Below are positions 17,260 to 34,200 of a stretch of DNA of 64,000 nucleotides, one piece after another. The stretch lies in assembly GCF_030253575.1 (NCBI RefSeq), contig NC_080560.1:39293001-39357000 (forward strand), in the 5' to 3' direction. Position 1 is the stretch's first letter; every line of letters begins with the position of its first letter. This DNA comes from Rhododendron vialii (Eukaryota > Streptophyta > Magnoliopsida > Ericales > Ericaceae). The notes beneath the pieces were generated by a model. The model saw nothing but the letters and a program-made list of their open reading frames with translations. It was not told the DNA's origin and made no database searches. The position numbers and the translations under genes are program-made.

Positions 17260-18225
17260 CTACTTCAGGAAAGAAGCCAAACGATTCACCATATTCTTTG
17301 CACTTTCAGATCCAGGATTTAGTATATGGAAGCAATGACCCTCTCCCTCTACCTCGAACAACTCCAAATCTCCGCCCCACCCGCTCTCTCCCACCGCCTT
17401 GGCGTAACGAACTCCTCTCTCCCTCAGATCGTCCATTCCCGCCACACACACGAGCAGCCGAGAACACCCGATCCCCGACAAGCTCGGGGCGTCGCGAGCG
17501 AACGGATTGATCATCGGGTGATCGATGCCTCCTGGCACGGAGGGGTACACAAACGTCCACATTCGGTACAAGATATTCTCCTCGTGACCAAAAACCGACT
17601 CGGACCCAATTGGGTCCGAGCCCCAAAAGTATGGGTGAGCAAGAAAAGCTCCCAATATTTTAACTCCTCCAAACAGGCCCTCAGTGCCCGCTCGAATGGT
17701 CAAGTTGTGCGCAATATTAGCTCCTGCGCTGTCGCCGCCAATGTAGAACCTATCAAAATCGCCGTTTCCGATCAACCACGGATCTTTATCGACGGTGTCT
17801 TCAACAGAGTGTGATGCAGCCCATTGGAGAGCGGTCCACGAATCCTCATAAGCCGCCGGCAGAGGGTGCTCTGGGGCTAACCTGTACTCGACCGACACGG
17901 CTATGACATTCGCTTGAGAGACTAAGGAGTTCATGGAGTCATGGTAGAAAGAGGAGAAGGCGGATTCGATGCAGAAACCTCCGCCGTGGAAGTAGACTAA
18001 GACGGGGAGCTTCTGTTGGTTGGTGGGCGGCGAGAGTTTTGGGAGGTAGAGTCGAGCCGAGACAAGTGGCGAGATGGTGGTGTCTTTGGATGAGACGCCG
18101 GTGGATGGGTCGGCGAGGGATGGCGGAACAAAGGGTGAGCCAAAAAGGCGTTCGACCGTGCCGTCTTGGTAAACCCTGAGGACCGGTACAAGCTCCGAAG
18201 CTATGGTTTTCGCGTTGGAAACCAT
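17260..18225 (-). CDS. Plant carboxylesterase (alpha/beta hydrolase), copy 1
   Basis: A complete intronless 321-residue member of the plant CXE / 2-hydroxyisoflavanone dehydratase-like family. The oxyanion-hole HGGG is at 80-83, the nucleophile Ser166 in GDSAG (164-168), Asp265 in AGMDDLRERG and His297 in EGHCFH. EYRLAPEHPLPAAYEDSW (113-130) is typical of the family. Because HGGG (not HTGG) is present, hydrolase rather than dehydratase activity is expected; the substrate cannot be read from sequence. No signal peptide is seen, so cytosolic. It is about 89% identical by eye to copy 2, and the two share 3' untranslated sequence (GAAGAAGAAAAGAAATCTAC). Confidence 0.95.
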   Translation of the reverse strand: MVSNAKTIASELVPVLRVYQDGTVERLFGSPFVPPSLADPSTGVSSKDTTISPLVSARLYLPKLSPPTNQQKLPVLVYFHGGGFCIESAFSSFYHDSMNSLVSQANVIAVSVEYRLAPEHPLPAAYEDSWTALQWAASHSVEDTVDKDPWLIGNGDFDRFYIGGDSAGANIAHNLTIRAGTEGLFGGVKILGAFLAHPYFWGSDPIGSESVFGHEENILYRMWTFVYPSVPGGIDHPMINPFARDAPSLSGIGCSRLLVCVAGMDDLRERGVRYAKAVGESGWGGDLELFEVEGEGHCFHILNPGSESAKNMVNRLASFLK

Positions 18226-18305
18226 TTTAGAGAGAGAGAGAGAGGATGGATGTGAGCAGAGATGGGGATGTAATGCCTGCCATGGGTGCGCCTATTACTA
18301 CAATA

Positions 18306-18645
18306 GTATTCCTCATTTTCAAATTATTTATCCGGTCTGTAAAACGATAACTTAAAAATAATATAATTTTTTCAAAAAAAAATTTAAACTTTTTTCACAA
18401 ATTAAAATTACTCATTGATATCTAGTAAGTTGTTGAAATTTTTTTGATTTTTTCTTGCAAAAATTGTATTATTTTTAACATTTCATTTTATTCAAGAAAA
18501 AATTCAAACTTTTTTCACAAATTAAAATTACTCATTGATATCTAGTAAGTTGTTGAAATTTTTTTTATTTTTTCTTGCAAAAATTGTATTATTTTTAACA
18601 CTTCATTTTACGGACCGAACAAATATTTTAGGGCAGAGGGAGTAG
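18306..18645. mobile_element. Stowaway-like MITE containing a 120-bp tandem duplication
   Basis: The right end GAGGGAGTAG with adjacent TA, and the left end TA-GTATTCCTC, resemble the CTCCCTC ends of Tc1/mariner-type MITEs. CCGGTCTGTAAAA is inverted as TTTTACGGACCG. The interior contains two copies of a 120-bp unit (TTTCACAAATTAAAATTACT recurs exactly 120 bp apart). It lies about 80 bp upstream of carboxylesterase copy 1. Confidence 0.6.
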
Positions 18646-18969
18646 TACAATGCAAGTTGTACAACGACCAACGTGATTTTCTCCACCACATGAGTTCCTT
18701 TCACACTTGGGTTTCCCTAAGTATTCGAATGGAAAGTTATCTACAAGGGATATTTAAAAGATAAGTTTTTGGGTGCCGGGAAGGTAACACACATGTGGTA
18801 TCTTATTGGTGATCTTAGCCATCGAAACGTGTTAATCAACTTTTGAGAGAGAAAAAAAGGAAAGTGAGTGATCGGGTGAGAGGAAAGAGAGAATAAATTT
18901 TGATTGTCCAAAATACATTTGGACGGCTTGAATTGCAGACAAATACTGCCAGGATTACTACATTTTTTT

Positions 18970-19440
18970 CTTTTCTTGTAGTCTCTTGTTGATTCTTCCG
19001 TTCTGTAAGTTGCCCAAACCGCATAAGTGGACCAAAATTCGCCTAAAATAAGCTCGAAGCATTTGTGTTTTAGCGAGTAATTATTCATTGGTATTGGAGC
19101 ACCGCACGTGGTATGTACCAACACCCTTACATGCACTATACATTTCCATGAGATCGATATATGAGTAATTATTCATTGGTATTGGAGCACCGCACGTGAT
19201 ATGTACCAACACCCTTATATACACCATACATTTTTATGAGATCGATACATGTATAGTGCCTCAAGACCACCGAAATAATTTTTCATGTTTTACTAGCATT
19301 TATAAGTACAAACACCGGTCATGGAAATGACAAAACATCAGACAACCCATTTTTTTGTTTTTGGTTTTTTGGAACAGCAGACATGCAACCCATTTTCGAA
19401 TCAAAAAGTCTAATTGCACAAATACTGTAAAAGGGCCGGT
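18970..19440. repeat. Duplicated intergenic block, copy B, with an internal 88-bp repeat
   Basis: Homologous to 15030-15430. Here an 88-bp segment beginning GAGTAATTATTCATTGG is repeated in tandem (19075 and 19163); copy A has it once. The block lies between carboxylesterase copies 1 and 2. Confidence 0.85.
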
Positions 19441-19687
19441 CCCGATTTTTGAGTTGACTAAGCCCAACACCAAACTTGGTTGCCCAAGTTTTCCTGTTTA
19501 TTATTAAGTCATAAAAATTTTAAAAATCATAGAAGTGAAAAAAAAATTAAGGTTGTATTGTGCTTTTCGTTTGAATAATGTCAAAAAATTAAAATTAAAA
19601 TTAAAATGAAACCCTGATTACAATGCTTTATGATTCGCATGATTCGACTTAAAAATAAATATCTTATTACGCAAATTCTTCAAATCA

Positions 19688-19965
19688 CACTACAAGAAAA
19701 TTGACATGCAAAAAATTGTCACTAAACTATTCTAGTGACAAAAACTTATGGGATTTGATTTTGGCACTTCAAATATTGATAAACACGCTCCAATATTTGT
19801 CTTTTGGTGTTCATATAATGTGTATTTTGAACACTAAAAGACAAATATTTGAGTGATTATTAAAAACTAGAGTGCCAAAATCCATTACCAAAATTATTGC
19901 CACAAAAATATCATTAAAAGAGTGTTGCTAAAGATATTTAGTGACAACATAAAATTGTTACTACT
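19688..19965. mobile_element. Possible CACTA element end with subterminal repeats
   Basis: The word CACTACAAGAAAA at 19688 is the conserved terminus of many plant CACTA (En/Spm) transposons. It is followed by repeated and inverted TGTCACTAAA / TAGTGACA words and an inner hairpin (19763-19895, TTTTGGCACT against AGTGCCAAAA). The matching opposite terminus was not found, so it is probably a fragment. Confidence 0.45.
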
Positions 19966-20281
19966 ACTATAGTCTTAGGCTCTGTGTGAATCTGTAGAAA
20001 GAAAGTAAGCAAAAAAAAGAAAATTTAAACAAAATCATTTTCCTTGTTTGGTTCTTAAAAAAAAAAAAAGGAAAAATTTCAAATCTCAATTTAACTTTCT
20101 TCCCAATTTTTCTTTCAGGTTTTCTTTAATTTCCTTCTCAATGATTTATAATATTCTTTCATTACGTTCCAAACAGAGTCTTGGTTTTAGACAGAAGGTT
20201 AAACAAAACCAAAAACACTTCCAACGTTGGGAACAAGTGTTGCTATTCATTCATGTGCACCACAAGAAGAAGAAAAGAAAT

Positions 20282-21244
20282 CTACTTCAGGAAAGAAGCC
20301 AAACGATTCACCATATTCTTTGCACTATCAGATCCAGGATTTAGTATATGGAAGCAATGACCCTCTCCTCCAACCTCAAACAACTCCAAATCTCCGCCCC
20401 ACCCGCTCTCTCTCACTGCCTGGGCGTAACGAATTCCTCTCTCCCTCAGATCGTCCATTCCCGCCACGCAAACGAGCAGCCGAGAACACCCGATCCCCAA
20501 CAAGCTCGGGGCGTCGCGAGCGAACGGGTTGATCATCGGGTGATCCATGCCACCCGGAGCAGGATACACAAAAGCCCACGTTCGGTGCAACAGATTCTCC
20601 TCATGAGCCGAAACCGACTCGGACCCAATTGGGACCGAGCCCCAGAAGTATGGGTGAGCAAGAAAAGCTCCCAGAATTTTAACTCCTCCAAACAGGCCCT
20701 CAGCGCCCGCTCGAATGGTCAGGTTGTGTGCAATATTAGCTCCTGCGCTGTCGCCACCAATGTAGACCCTATCAAAATCACCGTTTTCGATCAACCACGG
20801 ATCTTTGTCGATGGTGTCTTCAAGTGAGTGCGACGCGACCCACTGGAGAGCGGTCCAAGAGTCCTCGTAAGCTGCCTGTACAGGGTGCTCAGGGGCCAGC
20901 CTGTACTCGACCGACACGACAATGACTTTGGCTCGAGAGACTAAGGAGTTCATGGAGTCATGGTAGAGAGAGGAGAAGGCGGATTCGATGCAGAAACCTC
21001 CACCGTGGAAGTAGACTAAGATGGGGAGCTTCTGTTGGTTGGCGGGCGGCGAGAGTTTCGGGAGGTAGAGTCGAGCTGAGACAGGTGGCGAGATGGTGGT
21101 GTCTTTGGATGAGACGCCGGTGGATGGGTCTTCGAGGGATGGCGGAACAAAGGGTGAGCCTACAAGGCGTTCGACGGTGCCGTCTTGGTAAACCCTGAGG
21201 ACCGGTACAAGCTCCGAAGCTATGGTTTTGGCGTTGGAAACCAT
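20282..21244 (-). CDS. Plant carboxylesterase (alpha/beta hydrolase), copy 2
   Basis: A complete intronless 320-residue paralogue of copies 1 and 3. All catalytic elements are kept: HGGG 80-83, Ser166 in GDSAG, Asp264 and His296 (one residue earlier than in copy 1 because of a single-codon loss near 229, VYPAPGG). Two normally conserved positions differ: the HPLPAAYEDSW element reads HPVQAAYEDSW, and a cluster of changes at 211-228 (SAHEENLLHRTWAF) lies in the lid or acyl-binding region. These suggest altered substrate preference or relaxed constraint. It shares promoter and 3' flanks with the other copies. Confidence 0.95.
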   Translation of the reverse strand: MVSNAKTIASELVPVLRVYQDGTVERLVGSPFVPPSLEDPSTGVSSKDTTISPPVSARLYLPKLSPPANQQKLPILVYFHGGGFCIESAFSSLYHDSMNSLVSRAKVIVVSVEYRLAPEHPVQAAYEDSWTALQWVASHSLEDTIDKDPWLIENGDFDRVYIGGDSAGANIAHNLTIRAGAEGLFGGVKILGAFLAHPYFWGSVPIGSESVSAHEENLLHRTWAFVYPAPGGMDHPMINPFARDAPSLLGIGCSRLLVCVAGMDDLRERGIRYAQAVRESGWGGDLELFEVGGEGHCFHILNPGSDSAKNMVNRLASFLK

Positions 21245-21898
21245 TTTAGCGAGATGGGGGAGAAGATGGATGTGAGCACTGAGCAGAGATGAGGGAGAGA
21301 CTTATATTTCGGGGATGTAATGCCTGCCCCTAAAGGACTGCCATGAGTAGTGAGGCAAGTCTTATGTTTCTTTGGACAATAATTTTCCTTTCCTTGGACA
21401 ATGAATTTTGCTGAGCAAAATGTCGTAGAAAGGTATTATAATAGTGCTTCATAATACAAGTTGGACAGCTAGCATGACAATATACAATGCAAGTAGGACA
21501 ACTACGTACGTACCAACGTTGGTTTTCTCCGGCACATGGGTCCCTTTCACACCCACATCTGGGTTTCCCAAAAGTATTCTAATGGAAAGTGATCATAGTG
21601 AGCAAATTAACTCCAAGGTAGTAGTGAGTAATTTCAACTATTTAAAAGTGTTTTTGACGGTTCGAATTAATAAAAAAACTCTTTTAATGAAGAAAATAAT
21701 TTTTTCCTGAAAGAGCTTACTAACGACTGAAATACATCTTACAACCCTGTAGAGACTTTGCTCATTACAGGATTCCTGGGTTCCATTTTGATGGTATGGC
21801 TTAACTTAAAGCACAGAAGCATCGTAACTGCAGCATACAATTTTCTTGTGAATACTTGAATCCAATTCATGAACAACACCACAAACAAGAAAAGGAAT
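21245..21898. other. Upstream region of carboxylesterase copy 2, shared with the other copies
   Basis: 21350-21600 contains TCTTATGTTTCTTTGGACAA, GGTTTTCTCCGGCACATGGG and CTGGGTTTCCCAAAAGTATT. These recur at 18648-18750 and in part at 23390-23504, so at least 0.5 kb of promoter was copied with each gene. No other gene is present. Confidence 0.65.
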
Positions 21899-22864
21899 CT
21901 ACTGAAGAAAAGAAGCCAAACGATTCACCATATTCTTCCCACTATCAGATCCAAGATTTCCTACATGGAAGCAATGACCCTCTCCTAGCACCTCAAACAA
22001 CTCCAATTCTCCACCCCACCCGCTTTCTCTCACCGCCTTGGCGTAACGAACTCCTCTCTCCCTCAGCTCATCCATTTCCGCCACGCAAACGAGCAGCCGA
22101 GAACACCCGATCCCCGACAGGCTCGGGGCATCATGCGCGAACGGATTGATCATCGGGTGATCGATGCCTCCTGGCGCAGAGGGGTACCCAAGCGTCCACA
22201 TCCGGTACAAGAGATTCTGCTCATGACCTAAAACTAACTCAGACCCAATTGGGTTTGAGCCCCAGAAGTATGGTTGAGAAAGAAAAGCTCCCAAAATTTG
22301 AACTCCTCCAAACAAGCCCTCCATACCTGCTCGGATGGCTATGTTGTGTGCAATATTAGCTCCAGCGCTATCACCACCTATATAGACTCTATCAAAATCG
22401 CCGCTTTCGGTCAACCATGGGTCTTTATCGACGGTGTCTTTAAGTGAATGTGATGCAACCCATTGGAGAGCGGTCCACGAATCCTCGTAAGCCGCCGGCA
22501 GAGGGTGCTCCGGGGCTAACCTGTACTCGACCGATACGGCTATGACTTTCGCTTGAGAGACTAAGGAATTCATGTAGTCGTGGCACAGGGAGGAGAAGGC
22601 GGACCCGATGCAGAAGCCTCCGCCGTGGAAGTAGACTAAGACGGGGAGTTTTCTTTGGTGGGTGAGGGCTGAGGGTTTCGGGAGGTAGAGGCGAGCGGAG
22701 ACGAGTGGTGAGATGGTGGTGTCTTTCGATGAGATGCCGGTGGTTGGGTCGTCGGGCGATGGTGGCACAAAGGGCGAGTCTAGAAAGCGTTCGACCGTGC
22801 CGTCTTGGTAAACCCTGAGGATCGGGAGAAGGTCTGAAGCTATGGTGTTGGTGCTGGATGCCAT
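21899..22864 (-). CDS. Plant carboxylesterase (alpha/beta hydrolase), copy 3
   Basis: A complete intronless 321-residue protein with HGGG 80-83, GDSAG Ser166, Asp265 in AEMDELRERG and His297 in EGHCFH. It is the most diverged of the three intact copies (MASSTNTIAS start; CIGSAFSSLCHDYMN around 85-99). It keeps the family consensus where copy 2 departs from it, so it probably branched first. Same strand and spacing as its neighbours, each with its own promoter; not an operon. Substrate unknown; relatives hydrolyse acyl esters of secondary metabolites or xenobiotics. Confidence 0.95.
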   Translation of the reverse strand: MASSTNTIASDLLPILRVYQDGTVERFLDSPFVPPSPDDPTTGISSKDTTISPLVSARLYLPKPSALTHQRKLPVLVYFHGGGFCIGSAFSSLCHDYMNSLVSQAKVIAVSVEYRLAPEHPLPAAYEDSWTALQWVASHSLKDTVDKDPWLTESGDFDRVYIGGDSAGANIAHNIAIRAGMEGLFGGVQILGAFLSQPYFWGSNPIGSELVLGHEQNLLYRMWTLGYPSAPGGIDHPMINPFAHDAPSLSGIGCSRLLVCVAEMDELRERGVRYAKAVRESGWGGELELFEVLGEGHCFHVGNLGSDSGKNMVNRLASFLQ

Positions 22865-23002
22865 TTTAGAGAGAGGACTCAGAGGAGAGAGAGGGGGAGA
22901 GAGAATGGATGGATGGAGAATTGGAGAGTGTTTGTGAGCCCAGATTCGGAGAGATTTATACTATGGAGATGCAATTCCCCCAAATGATTGGGAAAAATCA
23001 AT

Positions 23003-25266: not shown

Positions 25267-28200
25267 CTATAGCCGTGAGTTACGTGGGTTAGGCCTCGTA
25301 AGTGTTTTTGTAAAGTACTCGCGGATCTCCGGTATTATACGCTGAATAAGTTGAGAATACCTGCCAATATTTAAAAGAAAACGAAATTTTCAGGAGACAA
25401 CAAAAACAAACAAGTGTATAACTCATCGAGTGGGGTAATTTGTGAATATCAAACACAGATTCAAAAGCTTGATGATCATACTTTCTCATCGTTGAGTCTA
25501 CCGGTTTTCACTATTTATAGGCAAACCATCTAGTTTCAACCATGCAAGTGCATTTCTCAAGGTTTTTTATTCTCAAGGTTTCTCAAGGTTTTTGACATAA
25601 CAAAAGTGTAAGCTGTGCTCATTCTAAACGCTAAACCACTTTACCAATACTATCTTCAGTTATCACTGCGTGTGAGATTTCGAGGAAAGGTTGAATATTG
25701 CAGATGATGTAAATTTAACTGTATTCTCCACATCAATTGCCATATCAAGGGGAAAAAATCCTATGGTGAGTACTGATTACCATAATTTGTATGTACTCCA
25801 ATTGATCTCAGGAATGAGGAGAAAAGAAAAACACTGAACAAGCAATTTCTTTCATTTGCCTAAAACCACTTCCGTATTATGTAGTATTAAAGAACATTCT
25901 CATAGTGGTAAATTCAGAGAGTATTATGCGCAGTTCATTGACAGAACAGCAAGAAACATACTGCTGAGTATAAGTTCACGGGTAGGCAAGATATGTCACA
26001 TATTATCATCTCTCCCTCATTTTTAAGTACTTTGCAATTTGATCCAGCGAAAAGTCTCAAAGAAAATCCTATAAGCTGAAAGCCTGCAATATGGAAAGGT
26101 TGGCGAAAGAACATACCTGGGCCTAGCACTTAATTTATCGAACTGCTCCAAAATGTATAGAATGCATGTATGCCTTAATGACAAGGCATGGAACGCGTCT
26201 GACAGCTCATACATGTTTGAAACGTTATCTGATGATATATCCTGAAGATGAAAAGAGAAGCATATTTGGGCATCCATCTGATTCATTAAGTGCCAAGGTA
26301 TTCAAAAGTATTAACTTTCTTACCTGAGCAATGGTGTATTCACAAAGCCGCTTGAGTGCCTCCAGGAGATACTGATCAGCAGCTCTAAGGAGATCTTGGG
26401 CTATATTCAATGTCACATCCACCGAGCCAGTGTATATAAATCTGGACATTAACAAATAGCCTATGTGTAGCAAATCTCAGGAATATTGACTACAATACAA
26501 GTTGAGTGTTAGGGAAAGACTGTAACCTCATCATCAACTCAAAAACTTCCCATCTTATATTTGGAATCTCTATATCTCTTGCATCCTTCTCCTGTGATTA
26601 ACGCAACGGGGAAATAATAAACAAAGATTAAATCCAACTTTTATGTTTTGCAATCCATTGTTACATATTTCCGTATATATTTCCACAAAAAGAAGTGATA
26701 AAAAAATGATAATAATCAAGCACCCTAACCCAAAACAAAAACTAGAAAAGGGAACGCCCAGATGTCGCATTCTTCACACACGCATGCACGCGCACATATA
26801 CGGATAGAAACTTGACAGAGATTGGTTTTGACGATTTATGTACAAACTCACCCGATAACCACCATCAAACATTGCACGGAATGCATCGGAAGAAGCAAGT
26901 AGGCAAATTCGATGGGCGTAGAACCGTTTACCTGAGTTTTCAGAAAAATTAAGTCATTTACTATCAATCTAGGCCAGGGAACTGCCATACACAGAGAGAA
27001 CTTATTCCTCTGGAACATAGATTAGGGATGTAAGCAAGCAAAGTAGTAATTTGGATTTACAACCTTCAACTAAGAAGGTGACATCGGATAATGTAGGATT
27101 GTTGACAAATTGTTCCCCCAAGTACACCTGCAGTGAGAATTCTTTCATCAGATTACCAATTTCTATTAGTAGTTAAATTACTGTTTCATATGTGAAAACT
27201 GCAAATACATATTGCTAATTCCACTTTAGGAAGCCAATAAGCAAATGGAAGGAAAATCTGGATTTATGAAACATACTTATCTAATGAACAGGATTTCAGA
27301 AACAAAGATTAAGATTCAGAAAACAGAGTTCCAACTAATCTAGCCATTACTATCGCAACAGATATCTATCAAAAATCCACACCAGTGCGTTAAAGAACTC
27401 TTCTCATCAAAGAGACATGGCACCAGAAATAGAAATTCTATACATCTGCAAGTCCTCTTTGTTAAGGTCGATTCAGATTTCCAAAATACTAGACCAGTAT
27501 TCTCAAAGAAAGTATTTTCTAAAAACTAAACAGTTATTATTCCTGCTAATGTCCCCAATAGCTCCAAATCAAAAAGAGCACATGGACCAAAAGGCTACCG
27601 CTAAATAAGATGTTGACCTGTGGCGTCGGAGATGGGGGAGCTGCATCAATGGAGGAGAGAGTCATCGCTTTGTTAGACAACTTGTACAAAGCTGTAGAAC
27701 CATCAAGTTGCTGCTTTAGGCTTGTGGAACCAAGAAGGCCAAGAAGTAACTCCAATCCTGCACACAGGTGAGATAAACCAATTTTTAGTATGCAAATTGC
27801 TGCCACTATGAACAAGAAATCCAACAATGGAAGATGTTGGACTAAAATATTCAAGTCAATCCAAATCTCAGAACTTTCCAATGTTTAATCTTAGTTATGG
27901 TTCCTATACCCAAATGTCAAAGAAGTATTAGTTCTAGTTAAACTGGAAGAATTTTGACAAAACAAAACCATGAACGCTTTAGCAAATGGTTAATTGATGG
28001 AGTTGACATTTTGAGAAATCAAGTTTATTTTGGTGTGAATTTGCCTAATTTTTTAAAGGGAGAAGTGCATCTTTCTCTTTCCCTTCTTCGCATAGACTAA
28101 GCATGTGTTCTTATGTACAACCCTGGAACACCCAAATATGAACACCAAGCCTGCAAACCATTGTTATCAATGAAAATGGCATACCATTGTTATCAATGAA

Positions 28201-31200
28201 AATTGTTCCCTGATCCTCCGGAGAACAAAGATGGGCTAGAGCCAAAGCAATTCGTCGTTGAACTGCCTTCTCTGCTACACGCATCAGATATAACAAATGG
28301 CTCAAAACCTATAAGAGAGAAATCAAGGGATGTAACTTCATGAACTAATATAACAAAGCATATAACAAGATTGGGGCTACTTTATCAAATAATTTGATAA
28401 AAGCTCACCCGTCCATGAATCTTCTCCTCTAATCTTTTCAGTGTCTTGGCTACACAATCTTTTGTCGCCTAAAAGCACATTTATTGTTACTATATTAGTA
28501 AGGACACATCCATCGAAACAACACGGCTAGGAACCTATAATGCTAAAGCAATCATATCTGGGCTCAAGCCTATGATTTCATCTGCTAGTTGAAAACAGAG
28601 AAAACCTCAACCTAGCAGCCAGAGTCCAAGAAATGGTAAAAAGTAAAAAAAGCATACTTGCACAATGAATTCTCCATCCTGCAACTTCTGAACACCGCCA
28701 ACCTTGATAAAATCAGACACATTATCCTATGGCAAAAACATAAAGTTAATAACATTGAAACACACAAATAACAAAGTGAAAAGGTAGGGGGTTTAGGACT
28801 CCCTCTTTGTACAGGGATTTACCCTTTGAGCTCTTGCTTGGAATATCAGATCTTTGACCAAAACAGATGACCGTTAGCGACACCACGGCTAGTGTTGACA
28901 ACTGGAAATGTCCTCCAATGGTGAAGTTCGTTTCCTCACAAGGCAAATTGTGGAGTAGGGTAGCTAATCCAAACACTCACAATGAATATGAATACCTCAG
29001 TCATTTTACACAGTGCTCTCGCGTATCAAACTTCGGATCTTGTGTTCCTTAACTTTTCAAGTATTTATAGGAGAATTTGGCCACCTACCCATAATTACCA
29101 ACCTCATAACCATGGTTAGTTGTCATCATTACAATCTCTCCAAAAAAGATTTCCAAGTGTTGGTCCAACATGCCTCATTCCTAATATGGTTGATTGGACA
29201 TCTGACAATCATTTTGGGGCCCATGTGCTTAATCCTTCTCAGTCACGACTTTGGAGACAATTGCGAACCTTATGCCGAGATAGTAATGAGTATACATCTC
29301 AGTTTTCCAGAAGGAACGGTCAAGATAATCCCTCCAAGAAGCTAGTTGACTAAGCTAGGGGTCGGAGTTGAAGACCTTTAACTGTATGGATCTGAATAGT
29401 TAGTTGACCTCGGCCGAAGTTAATACTGATTTTCCTGAAATACCTTGACGTCTCCTAATGCATTTTGTTTTCATATCTAGAATGTTATTTAAGACACCCT
29501 ACTATTTTCACCCCCCACAAAGTCCATCAAGTCTTTCTTGAAACCCGTTGCAAAATCGATATGCCTATCAAAATCTGGAAACGAGTGTCACTCGCCATTG
29601 ATTCCGTCACCCAATCCCTGCAAAAGATTTCCGCGACAAAACTTTCTGGAATGAAGATAAAACAGCGTCCTCACATTGAACCTAAACATGATGTAGGAGT
29701 TTTGTATAAGTTCCAAATAATTCTCTCTCGTTGCACCACATCACAGATTTTTTAGCCCATGATCTAGCCATTACAGAATTGGGATCGGTGGGAGCTGATC
29801 CACCACCACCTGAAACTTCTTCTTGTGGTGAAATGCAATGCACTTGAGTATATTCGGATGATCTAACCTGGACAAGAACTGGGACAACCCCAACACCGCC
29901 CCAAACTCGTCAAAGGTAAGCACAGTACCCTGTCTTCCAGGCATTATCAAAGTCCATTTCTTGGAGTTGGAGATGGACCATAGTGCATTTCGCTAATGCA
30001 TGCCCCAATCCCATTTCATATCCCCAACATAGCAATAAGAGAGTGTCATCTTCTTGGTTTTGGAACCCCTTTTCCTGTGACGAACACTCTCTTCTATCTC
30101 ACCAGAACACACTTTTCTCTCTCATCAAAGAGATTTAACTCTCTCTCTCTCCGATGTGGAAGCTTGATACTACACCGAGAGAGAATTATTTGAAACTTAA
30201 ACAAAACTATTACATCATTTTCAGGTTCATTGTGAGAACGTTTATCTTCATTCTAGAGTGTTTTGTCACGGGTACGGGAATCAATTCCAAGAATTGGGTG
30301 ACGGAACCGATGGTGAGTGACACTCGTGTCTCTTTAACAAATTTTGATAGGCATATTGATTTTGCAACGGGTTTCAAGAAAGATTTGATGGACTTTGTGG
30401 GAGGTGAAAATAATAGGACATCTTAAATAAGCATTGTAGAGATGAAAACAAAATTCCTTAAAAGAAGTCAAGGTACTAACTATTTAGATCCAGTCAAGGT
30501 CTTCAAATCCGACCACTAGCTCAGCAACTAGCTTCTTGGACATGGAGGAAAGTCCGAGGAAGATTTAACTCTCGGATCAACCATATCATTATAATGGTCA
30601 CTCAAGGGATCTAAACCTCGGACATGGTCTGAAGAGGTCTAGGAATTATCCTCATCAATCCTCCTAGAAAGTCAAGATGTATATTCTCTAGCCATAAGGT
30701 TTGCAACTGTATAAAAAGTCGCATCCGAGAAGAATTAGCACTTGCGCCCCCAAAATGTTTGTCAGATGTTCAATCATCTTTATCAGGAATGGGGCATGTG
30801 AGACCCACATGCGGAGATTGCAAGGATGGCATATAACCATGGTACGGTTTTGGTAGCCTGGGTAGGTGGCTAAATTTTCCTATAAACATTCGAATAAGTC
30901 AAGTAAGAAAGGATCTGAAATTTAATACACGAGAACAATGTGAGTAAAACAACCGATGTATTCTAATTCATTGTGAGTTCTCGATCTAACAACTCTAGTA
31001 ACTTGACCATCGGAAGACATTTTCAGTTGTCAACGCCGGCTGAAGTGTCGCTAATGGTGTTCTCTTTTGCAGCCACCGATCAAAATTCTCACTTTTGAGC
31101 AGGAGCTCAAAGGGTAAAACCCTGTACAAAGAGGGAGTCTGATACCCGGCCTCCACACAATGTGAGACAGAGCCTAAATCAGAATTAGTAAGCCACAGGG

Positions 31201-34200
31201 TTAAAACTGGGGTGGGGGGAATTACCATTTTTTTTTTTGTAGAATTCAGCAAAATAAACAAAAGGACATCAGCCCTGTTAGAAGTTTCAAATGAATTCAT
31301 AATATTAATGTATACCTCATTATCTGCAAGGCCGTAAAGAGCAAATGCAGCATTATGTTGCAGAGACCCATTTTTCGAATCAAGGAGCTTCAATAATGGC
31401 ATCAACCCGCCATTATGAGCGATACCAGCTTGGTTATGAGTGTCCTGAATGACAACAACAACAAAAAAATCAAACGTATGATAAAGCCTTGCCTACCATG
31501 ATGTACCCACTACCGTGATGCTTCCAGTTCCAGTTGTAGACAAAGGTTTGCAATGAAGAAAAGTGAATATGGAATATCTTCATAGAGCAATGAGGAAAAT
31601 GACATGGAAAATTTGGTACCACACCGTAGCAACTTTCAGTAGTCAGCCATGCTGTCTGTGCAATATAGAGACACCTACCTGAAAGCAACTTCGGCCCACT
31701 ACACATGACTGGTAATCAGGTTGTAAAATATGCAATTGGATCGGTACTTTACTTTTTCTAATCTTTTATTGTTTCCTCTTCTCTCTGCCACTGCATTTCA
31801 TTTTCTTGGAACCACGCAACACCGTGGCATTCCATAGAAACAGGTAGATCATTTGAACCAGAGTGTGACTCATACGAAGAGAGGATACAATGAACCATCC
31901 TTATTTAACAAGAATGTATTACCAAGAGAAACAAAGGTTCCTTTGCTAATGCTCTCTTCCAAAGTGAATTTTACAGCAGTTAAAAATCTGGGCTGACAAG
32001 AAAATATTCCCCGTCAATTTTTTTTGAGTCAGTAACCATATCACAAAGAATAACTACATCTCCTGTATATTTACCCGAAAGGAAAACTATCCCTCCTCAA
32101 TCCAAGATTCTAAGAACGAAAGTGGAAGTTATCAGACAGATCAATGCAATCCTTAGTAAGTGGAAAGACAATGTCAGCACAATATAATGGCAGCAAATTT
32201 AGAGTACCAGTTATTAATGGTGGGAGTAACAAACGAGAGAAGAAAATGAGTCACTAACCTGTGCCAACCTCCCGAGTGCAAAAGCCGACATTTCTCTAAG
32301 CTGTACGTCGGGGGATTGAAGCATCTCAATCAATGGCTGGACAGCTCCTCTCTGGACAATGTGAACCTGCAAATAACCTTGCTTTCTTCATAAGGGAAAA
32401 ACACAGAACAAATAAATATGACAAAAATAACTAAATAGAACAGAAAAAAAGTACAAATTTGAGCAGGCTCAAAAACAATGAAGCAGCCTGCAAAATACTC
32501 GTTTTTTAACTAGTCAAACATGAAACATTACTGTTCAGCTAAGCCGCAAAAGGAAGGCAGGCCGCAGGCGCACAAGAAGAAAAACAGGAATCAAATGACA
32601 AACACTCCAATCCCAAAAGTTTTCAATGTCAAAATTGTCCCTTCCTTCCCTCTCATCTTTGATTCTTTCACGCAACCAACTAGCACGAGCAAAGAGAAAA
32701 TCCATGACCAATCTCCGAAGTAAAAACAAATGAGGGGCAACGCAAGCCCGAACCAACCTTACAATCTGAATCAGTAGCAGCAAATTGTCCAAGTAATAAA
32801 GCTGCCTCCCTTTGGCTCTCAGAGCAACAAGAACTGTAAACCAATTGATGAAACTGAGGAATCTAAACAGAGAGCTAATGTGAACATACATAGGAACGAG
32901 GAAACAAAAGGAGCAAACTCTATTCTGTTAAAGGAAATGTGAAGAGTCAGGACACTACAAAAGGTGACAAGCTTTCATGATGACCTGAGCAATCCAACAA
33001 CAGGTTGCAAAGCCCCAGCAATAAGAACTTCCTTCTTAATGTTTGGGGATGAATGCACCAGATTACCGATAACGCCAACCTGAAAACCAAGAATCATCAT
33101 CAGATGCTAGTTGCTACAAATAATATGAAGACCAAAAAACAAGTTTCCAATGGATATAAAGTACTAATAGGAAACGCTATTTTGAGAAAAATCCAACCGC
33201 TTCATAATGAATGGCAGCATCCTCAGACCGGAGCATTAGAATCAGGGTAGGAAGAGCGTTGCATTCTACAATCTGAAAAGTCATAATTGTCATATCGATT
33301 ACAGAATACGAACTGGTTCAACAACATATTCATCTTTCCATAAACATCACAGAACCTGATTCTTATTTTCGTCATTCTTAAATGCCAGAGTTCGTAGTGC
33401 TCCAGCTGCTGCCCTTTGTACCTTTGGATCACTGAATTGAAGCAACCCAACAAGCGGGCGAATCCCGCCTTCCAACCTGAAAATATACACCAGGTGACCA
33501 CCAAGAGAGATGGAACAAACTGCCACTGGAAGTTAAAATACTGGGGGGGTGGGTAGCAACTCATACCTAACACGGGTCTTAATACGGCTATTTTCATGCG
33601 CAAGATTAGTGATTGCATCAGCTGCTCTTCGAATGACACTGTTGACAGCCCGAGAGCTGGAACTGTCCCTGTGCCACTCTAGTAAATCCACAAGATGAGG
33701 CAAGGCACCATTGTCCACTATGAGCTGCTGATGCTCTGGCTGTTTGGAATAAGAAAAACATTCAGCAAAAAATGCCTAGTCATGGAGCTGTGTTAAGTGA
33801 TGTTTTTATTTTGGATTTACATAATTCTTTTCTAATTGGAGAATGCTGAATTGGGCCAACCTCATGTAGCTATTGAATGCCATTCCCCGACCCACCCATG
33901 CAACCCCCTCTCACACACACCCCTTTTTCCCAACCCCACTCCCTCTTTTTCATTGAAATTACTGAGTTGAGTTATGCTTGTAAAAAATTCCTAGTGATCA
34001 GAGTATCACATTTCCAGTCTAGTGCTAGGTCTAAGTAAAAGCTGTGTAAGAAATTCAGCTTGCTATTACCCTGTATTCTTCCTTTCTAGCTCACTTGACG
34101 GGCTTCACTCTTTAGAGTTTGAAGGAAGCTTTCAAAACCTTGTGTAATGCATGACACACATACGCAGTCAAGGTGATCCTTCAGATAACATAGGTGGGTT

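Follow-up and report, generated by a model that had tools for sequence, protein, structure and literature searches.

A near-palindrome of 2,381 bases (28777-31157) occupies an intron of a minus-strand ARM/BTB gene of Rhododendron vialii, and it is probably an old palindromic retro-insertion, in which a retro-copied host mRNA was fused to an LTR end, made palindromic and integrated via two U3 ends. The window, as we term the whole 64,000-nucleotide stretch that was analyzed, corresponds to C4:39293001-39357000 of the searched genome (532.6 Mb, 13 contigs). Alignments show the following order within the element: an LTR-like unit; the start of exon 3, exon 2 and exon 1 of a kinase-like gene, spliced and antisense; inverted copies of the exon 1 tail, exon 2 and the exon 3 start; and an inverted LTR-like unit (Table 1). 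The element today appears as a decaying pseudogene hairpin.

Table 1. Features of the palindromic element and of its host intron (positions in the window)
Feature	Positions	Strand	Basis
Intron of the ARM/BTB (ARIA-type) gene, holding the whole element	28727..31315	-	GT-AG borders intact; 2,589 bases
Left target-site copy CAAAG (proposed)	28772..28776	.	4/5 versus CAATG
Left LTR-like unit, 743 bases, TG...CCCACA	28777..29519	+	Family start and end; sister of right unit, 99/99
First 37 bases of kinase-like exon 3, abutting the CA end of the LTR-like unit	29520..29556	-	L043 match ends at 29520 with longer query
Kinase-like exon 2, joined without introns to exons 1 and 3	29557..29681	-	Left arm 151/203 identical to spliced L043
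Kinase-like exon 1, single copy except for its tail, most of the loop	29682..30121 (upper limit approximate)	-	Contains RLDHPNILKCIAF
Loop (spacer) of the palindrome	29734..30172	.	Inverted alignment and 7-base GATGTGG/CCACATC match
Inverted copy of exon 1 tail	30179..30224	+	Alignment to spliced L043
Inverted copy of exon 2, kinase-like	30225..30358	+	Right arm 151/208 identical to spliced L043
Inverted copy of exon 3 start, 37 bases	30359..30395	+	L043 match ends at 30395 with longer query
Right LTR-like unit, 762 bases, opposite orientation	30396..31157	-	Family terminus TGTGGAGGCC starts at 31157
Right target-site copy CAATG (proposed)	31158..31162	.	4/5 versus CAAAG

The near-palindrome and its host intron

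The near-palindrome was confirmed. Inverted alignment of 28789-29733 with 30173-31147 scored 537, compared with a maximum of 28 in 30 shuffles, which bears out the two collinear inverted arms of about 950 bp claimed by the first-pass annotation. This arm-to-arm alignment contains 727 identities in 1,034 columns, 148 of which are gap columns, and 14 of 15 inverted pairs lie on the main arm diagonal, the exception being I15. Two perfect arm-arm runs are at least 19 nt long (26 and 20 nt). Comparison with family members places the likely true ends of the element at 28777 and 31157, outside the aligned arms. The spacer, previously put at about 400 bp, is 439 bases by alignment and about 400 when the final 7-base inverted match is counted (29738-29744/30152-30158); this pair, GATGTGG/CCACATC, is located near both loop ends and occurs at a frequency of 0.027 in random pairs.

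The element was also said to reside in an ARIA intron, and indeed the intron that contains it, with GT-AG borders, belongs to an ARM/BTB gene on the minus strand that we take to be ARIA-type. In this gene, Arm was detected above cut-off in ORFs 33347-33532, 33533-33775 and 32214-32387, and BTB in ORFs 26774-26953 and 26225-26476; the exon adjoining the intron (in ORF 30995-31492) matched Arm at E = 0.066 only, below cut-off. In a paralogue on C13, the corresponding intron has identical exon borders but measures only 117 bases; both flanking exons are present there, with matches of 86% and, for the one that extends into the intron, 61%. Subtraction of the element from the window intron leaves about 200 bases, an ordinary intron size. 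Elsewhere in the window, the minus strand of 17260-22960 carries three tandem long ORFs (339-353 aa), presumably related to plant carboxylesterases.

A spliced kinase-like fragment in both arms

Comparison with relatives of both parts shows that the arms are composite, with an outer LTR-like unit (TG...CA) of 743 or 762 bases and about 215 inner bases from a kinase-like gene. With uncut queries, homology to the LTR family stops at 29519 and 30396 and kinase homology stops at 29520 and 30395, such that the two limits abut. The first-pass annotation had described a captured gene fragment in a foldback within the ARIA-type intron, which is supported, and kinase-type coding sequence on one strand of the loop; the minus strand does encode RLDHPNILKCIAF as stated. 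The captured gene is present in the loop, but it is not confined there, as it also fills the inner portion of both arms. Exon 1 matched L042, one of five related loci fetched from C2, at E = 6.7e-15 (tblastn against the five-locus database, stops as X).

The arms lack the introns of these relatives. Against spliced L043, the two arms scored 140 and 133, compared with 82 and 80 against unspliced L043 and with maxima of 38 and 36 (200 shuffles each), and neither arm has a gap at either exon junction. The 24 and 33 gap columns in these alignments are located away from the junctions, and they count against the retro-insertion reading. In L043 itself, both junctions are interrupted by introns, 599 and 658 bases long and bordered by GT-AG; these borders recur in L045, and L044 has the acceptor of intron 1 and the donor of intron 2. 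Precise intron absence, a feature of processed retrocopies, is found here for two introns in both arms, and the captured piece is therefore RNA-derived. The poly-A tail of a LINE-type retrocopy is lacking. Instead, a truncated exon 3 adjoins an LTR-like end, an arrangement that fits an LTR-type rather than a LINE-type retrocopy. The captured gene contains stops and frameshifts in the loop and in the left arm. In the right arm, a 95-codon open frame (30139-30426, plus strand) runs through the exon 1 tail, exon 2 and exon 3.

Besides itself, the loop read on its minus strand matched seven genomic places, five in a C2 cluster at 1.41-1.49 Mb and the others at C2:7.14 Mb and on C9, with a best match of 45% identity (E = 1.9e-6). 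Among the five fetched C2 loci, exon 2 is present in L043-L045 and exon 3 in L043 and L045; L042 and L046 have exon 1 only, with an exon 2 match just outside L042 (C2:1420100). A genome search with exon 2/3 protein returned only both arms and, with E values of 0.06-0.4, the C2 cluster. For loop DNA, the only other genomic match was 34 bases long and located in the right arm. These three genome searches, with loop DNA, loop protein and exon 2/3 protein, found no donor nearer than the C2 cluster, and protein identity between the donor family and the captured piece is only 28-48%. At this identity, a donor since lost may have been without these introns, which counts against an origin by retro-insertion.

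No captured piece or single C2 exon matched Pfam or NCBIfam above the curated cut-off, and PDB searches with the same pieces gave no or weak matches, the best being to a calcium-dependent kinase (E = 0.0086). With the L043 exons joined, the match to PK_Tyr_Ser-Thr (E = 0.0027) stayed below the curated cut-off, and kinase chains were matched weakly. These weak matches and our reading of the motif order point weakly to a kinase-like identity. The C2 loci L042-L046 (C2:1.41-1.50 Mb) form a tandem cluster of divergent kinase-like genes that are subthreshold in Pfam. In L043 exon 2 we read HGN at the position that we take for the expected HRD and NF at that of the expected DFG, which suggests that the cluster genes may be pseudokinases.

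LTR-like units and their flanks

The arms had been noted to look LTR-like in places, and this was right, since the outer arm is a TG...CA unit. In parts of one account, TG...CA is described as a conserved LTR feature (PMC3601003). Copies of the arms elsewhere in the genome were also found, as diverged relatives: searches with either arm identified them on other contigs at 66-84% identity over arm parts, counts of these relatives being lower bounds. The shared unit start TGTGGAGGCCGGGTTTAGGACTCC occurs at 13 sites with three or fewer mismatches, compared with none for the reversed pattern, and the right end in the window is one of the 13. The full termini, TGTGGAGG...CC(C/T)CCCACA, with short inverted ends, are shared by the right unit and family copies; in the left unit, the first ~15 bases of the 5' end are decayed. 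The shared unit end TTTTCACC(C/T)CCCAC(A/G) is present in both arms, in L024/L025 and in L026/L056. L026/L056 is one insertion that was duplicated with its neighboring sequence and L024/L025 is likewise a duplicated pair, so these count as two independent ends. A search with a 31-position end pattern gave 8 matches (control, 2), with its register one base off, and is no census of the family. C12:21048119 was rejected as a further family copy, because its similarity to the window units is limited to its last 17 bases.

None of the 10 fetched 9.9-kb loci that hold the unit contains a second, inverted copy; the other copies examined are single, noninverted units. In a tree of 12 rows, the left and right window units are sisters with 99/99 support, which discounts a chance meeting of two independent units of different lineage. 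By BLAST pieces, the left unit is 74.6% and 71.6% identical to L004 and L005 and 70.4% identical to the right unit. Only one same-orientation pair was seen among the 13 termini, on C1, and its members, 682 bases apart, are too close for a coding interior. This locus, L047 (C1:10173898-10174603), has two same-orientation unit starts that are 77% alike over 589 bases, and may be a tandem partial duplicate or a nested insertion. A further search, in which 40 of 321 candidates were scored, yielded 48 matches, many of them to a repeat nested in the query. Among the family termini we found no ordinary LTR pair or full-length coding element, which counts against a palindromic retro-insertion, and the label LTR therefore rests on the termini and on imperfect 5-bp duplications.

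These duplications emerged from a comparison of flanks at k = 3 to 11, with boundaries at TG...CA, for four independent units (the window, L056, L025 and L058). Only k = 5 was in excess, with 4, 3, 3 and 3 of 5 bases matching (sum 13/20, compared with 0.08-0.34 for the other k); a random sum of at least 13/20 at this k has P = 0.00045 before correction for nine k values. L026, the duplicate of L056, also matched at 3/5. No flank duplication is perfect, and for L025 (CACG) and L058 the unit ends were set by eye. A 5-bp duplication falls within the 4-6 bp range of LTR retrotransposons. Overall, the flank data favor LTR-type integration as the probable mode for the family, including that of the palindrome via its two outer TG ends.

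Two family loci revealed further insertions and duplications. L025:4224-4510 contains an insertion of ~270 bases inside the LTR-like unit that resembles a small hAT-type element; it has the termini CAGTGTTCTAAATGG...CCATTTAGAACACTG and is accompanied by the 8-base duplication TTTAGGAC. L026 and L056/L060 (C13:25.79-25.81 Mb) represent a tandem duplication of genes, which we take to be F-box-like, with the same LTR-like insertion in both copies; because both carry it, the duplication is younger than the insertion.

Origin, folding and significance of the element

How might such a structure have formed? Reverse transcription would take place in a retrotransposon particle, where cDNA of the LTR end would cross onto a copackaged host mRNA. 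Consistent with a crossover at this point, the host sequence starts exactly at the CA end, the place of the primer-binding-site copy. The host sequence is antisense to the LTR, as would be expected of plus-strand strong-stop DNA that reads into a primer-like mRNA. The 3' end of the single strand would then fold back near the end of exon 1, as the 7-base inverted match at the loop ends would permit, prime itself and copy itself, and the resulting hairpin would yield a palindrome with two integrase-competent ends. We put forward only tentatively the specific route in which the host mRNA stood in for the tRNA that normally primes, or became attached at the primer-binding site, plus-strand strong-stop cDNA extended through the LTR into the spliced mRNA and snapped back, and integrase accepted the palindrome with its two U3 ends. 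Integration as a single unit through two outward U3 (TG) ends with a 5-bp target duplication is supported, not proved. Counting against the retro-insertion, about 11 bases at the loop end misfit a clean snap-back (by eye), and the window duplication is 4/5 with flanks that also match at 8/9 over 9 bp.

Divergence between the arms also bears on this mechanism. K2P distances are 0.20-0.25 in the LTR part and 0.13-0.15 in the gene part across three scoring schemes, the difference having a Fisher p of 0.011 or 0.092 depending on the alignment (two of three schemes). A single fold-back event does not predict unequal arm divergence, which counts against it unless gene conversion or unequal rates intervened; either conversion between the inner arms or a faster decay in the LTR part would account for it. 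At substitution rates of 7e-9 to 1.3e-8 per site and year, the arm distances correspond to an age of about 5-18 million years.

The spliced fragment and the LTR-like ends would be accounted for equally well if an ordinary LTR element with a spliced kinase-like fragment had inserted first and the second arm had arisen by a later inverted duplication at the DNA level, which is how inverted duplications generally arise. However, the outer ends of the element fall on the family terminus, precisely so at the right and in decayed form at the left, and are flanked by the 5-bp duplication-like match, features that a later duplication would place there only by chance, and we regard this order of events as unlikely.

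The first-pass annotation favored a Mutator-like foldback or Pack-MULE that had captured a gene fragment from genomic DNA, an origin that the inverted arms enclosing a gene fragment would suit, as would the window flanks ACAAAGTGA/ACAATGTGA, which match at 8/9 with Mutator-type boundaries, the left boundary having been chosen for the window. The flanking 9-bp repeats proposed as a check would suit the window but do not extend to the other copies, for which L056, L026, L025 and L058 give 3, 4, 0 and 1 of 9. Moreover, the ends are TG...CA, the left terminus under this reading shares only 4 of 12 bases with that of the family (by eye), inverted partners are absent from all 10 fetched unit loci, such that terminal inverted repeats are not the normal family form, and two introns are precisely gone from the captured piece. 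The 8/9 match in the window is explained only as an overlap with the 5-bp reading, and a Mutator-type origin is very improbable.

The first-pass annotation further claimed that the ARIA primary transcript can form a very long hairpin, and prediction agrees. The folded stretch (28730-31318, three bases off the intron borders) has a predicted MFE of -1230 kcal/mol, compared with a mean of -697 and an SD of 14 for 20 dinucleotide shuffles, and 747 of 975 predicted pairs are arm to arm. That the hairpin supplies small RNAs silencing donor kinase-like genes in trans, as also proposed, is scarcely credible: the predicted stem is very stable and includes exon 2/3 sequence, where the longest perfect arm-arm run (26 nt) is located, but exon 1 with RLDHPNILK is in the loop, outside the stem, loop DNA has no match elsewhere in the genome, and 29520-30395 shares no identical run above 15 nt with the five C2 loci (the longest being a 15-nt CT run; the two weaker loci, C2:7.14 Mb and that on C9, were left out of this comparison), because of which silencing of the five C2 genes is unlikely, and no nearer donor was found. 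The present effect is most likely local, with a predicted long hairpin in the ARIA-type pre-mRNA and possibly small RNAs acting on the element itself.

Foldback (FB-type) elements have long inverted arms with a loop, and inverted arms are their normal family form. The window element resembles them in its arms and loop; unlike them, the other copies of its unit that were examined are single. These copies are like solo LTRs, being single TG...CA units with decayed 5-bp duplications, whereas the window contains two inverted units and a host-derived interior. LTR-carried retrocopies are already known. As set out in parts of one report, spliced host mRNA comes to lie beside an LTR via reverse transcription and template switching, with only part of the parental mRNA present, as in maize Bs1 (PMC5408686). 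The window element shares these features, but relative to what those parts describe, its host portion adjoins the CA end and is antisense to the LTR, the whole is mirrored and the LTR-like units are opposed. Pack-MULEs and Pack-TIRs likewise hold captured gene pieces between transposon ends, and their capture in animals is explained, in the portion of the source that treats it, by gap filling from nearby DNA; in contrast to these TIR DNA elements as described there, the window element has a spliced capture, TG...CA ends and 5-bp duplications (PMC8277862). A mirrored, spliced host fragment between opposed LTR units (an inverted-LTR retrocopy) was not found in the literature searched, in which few subscription journals were covered.

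Host-coding hairpin loci are candidate founders of plant small-RNA genes and are usually ascribed to inverted duplication at the DNA level. If the palindromic retro-insertion is true, a host mRNA can become an inverted repeat straight through reverse transcription and reach a gene within the same step. Under the more specific route with the host mRNA at the primer site, the window element would be a natural fossil of a hairpin cDNA with two U3 ends that integrated, and retrotransposons would have a route to making long host-coding hairpins within genes. Opposed TG...CA units, a spliced interior, a 5-bp duplication and no primer-binding site would provide a signature that can be searched for in other genomes.
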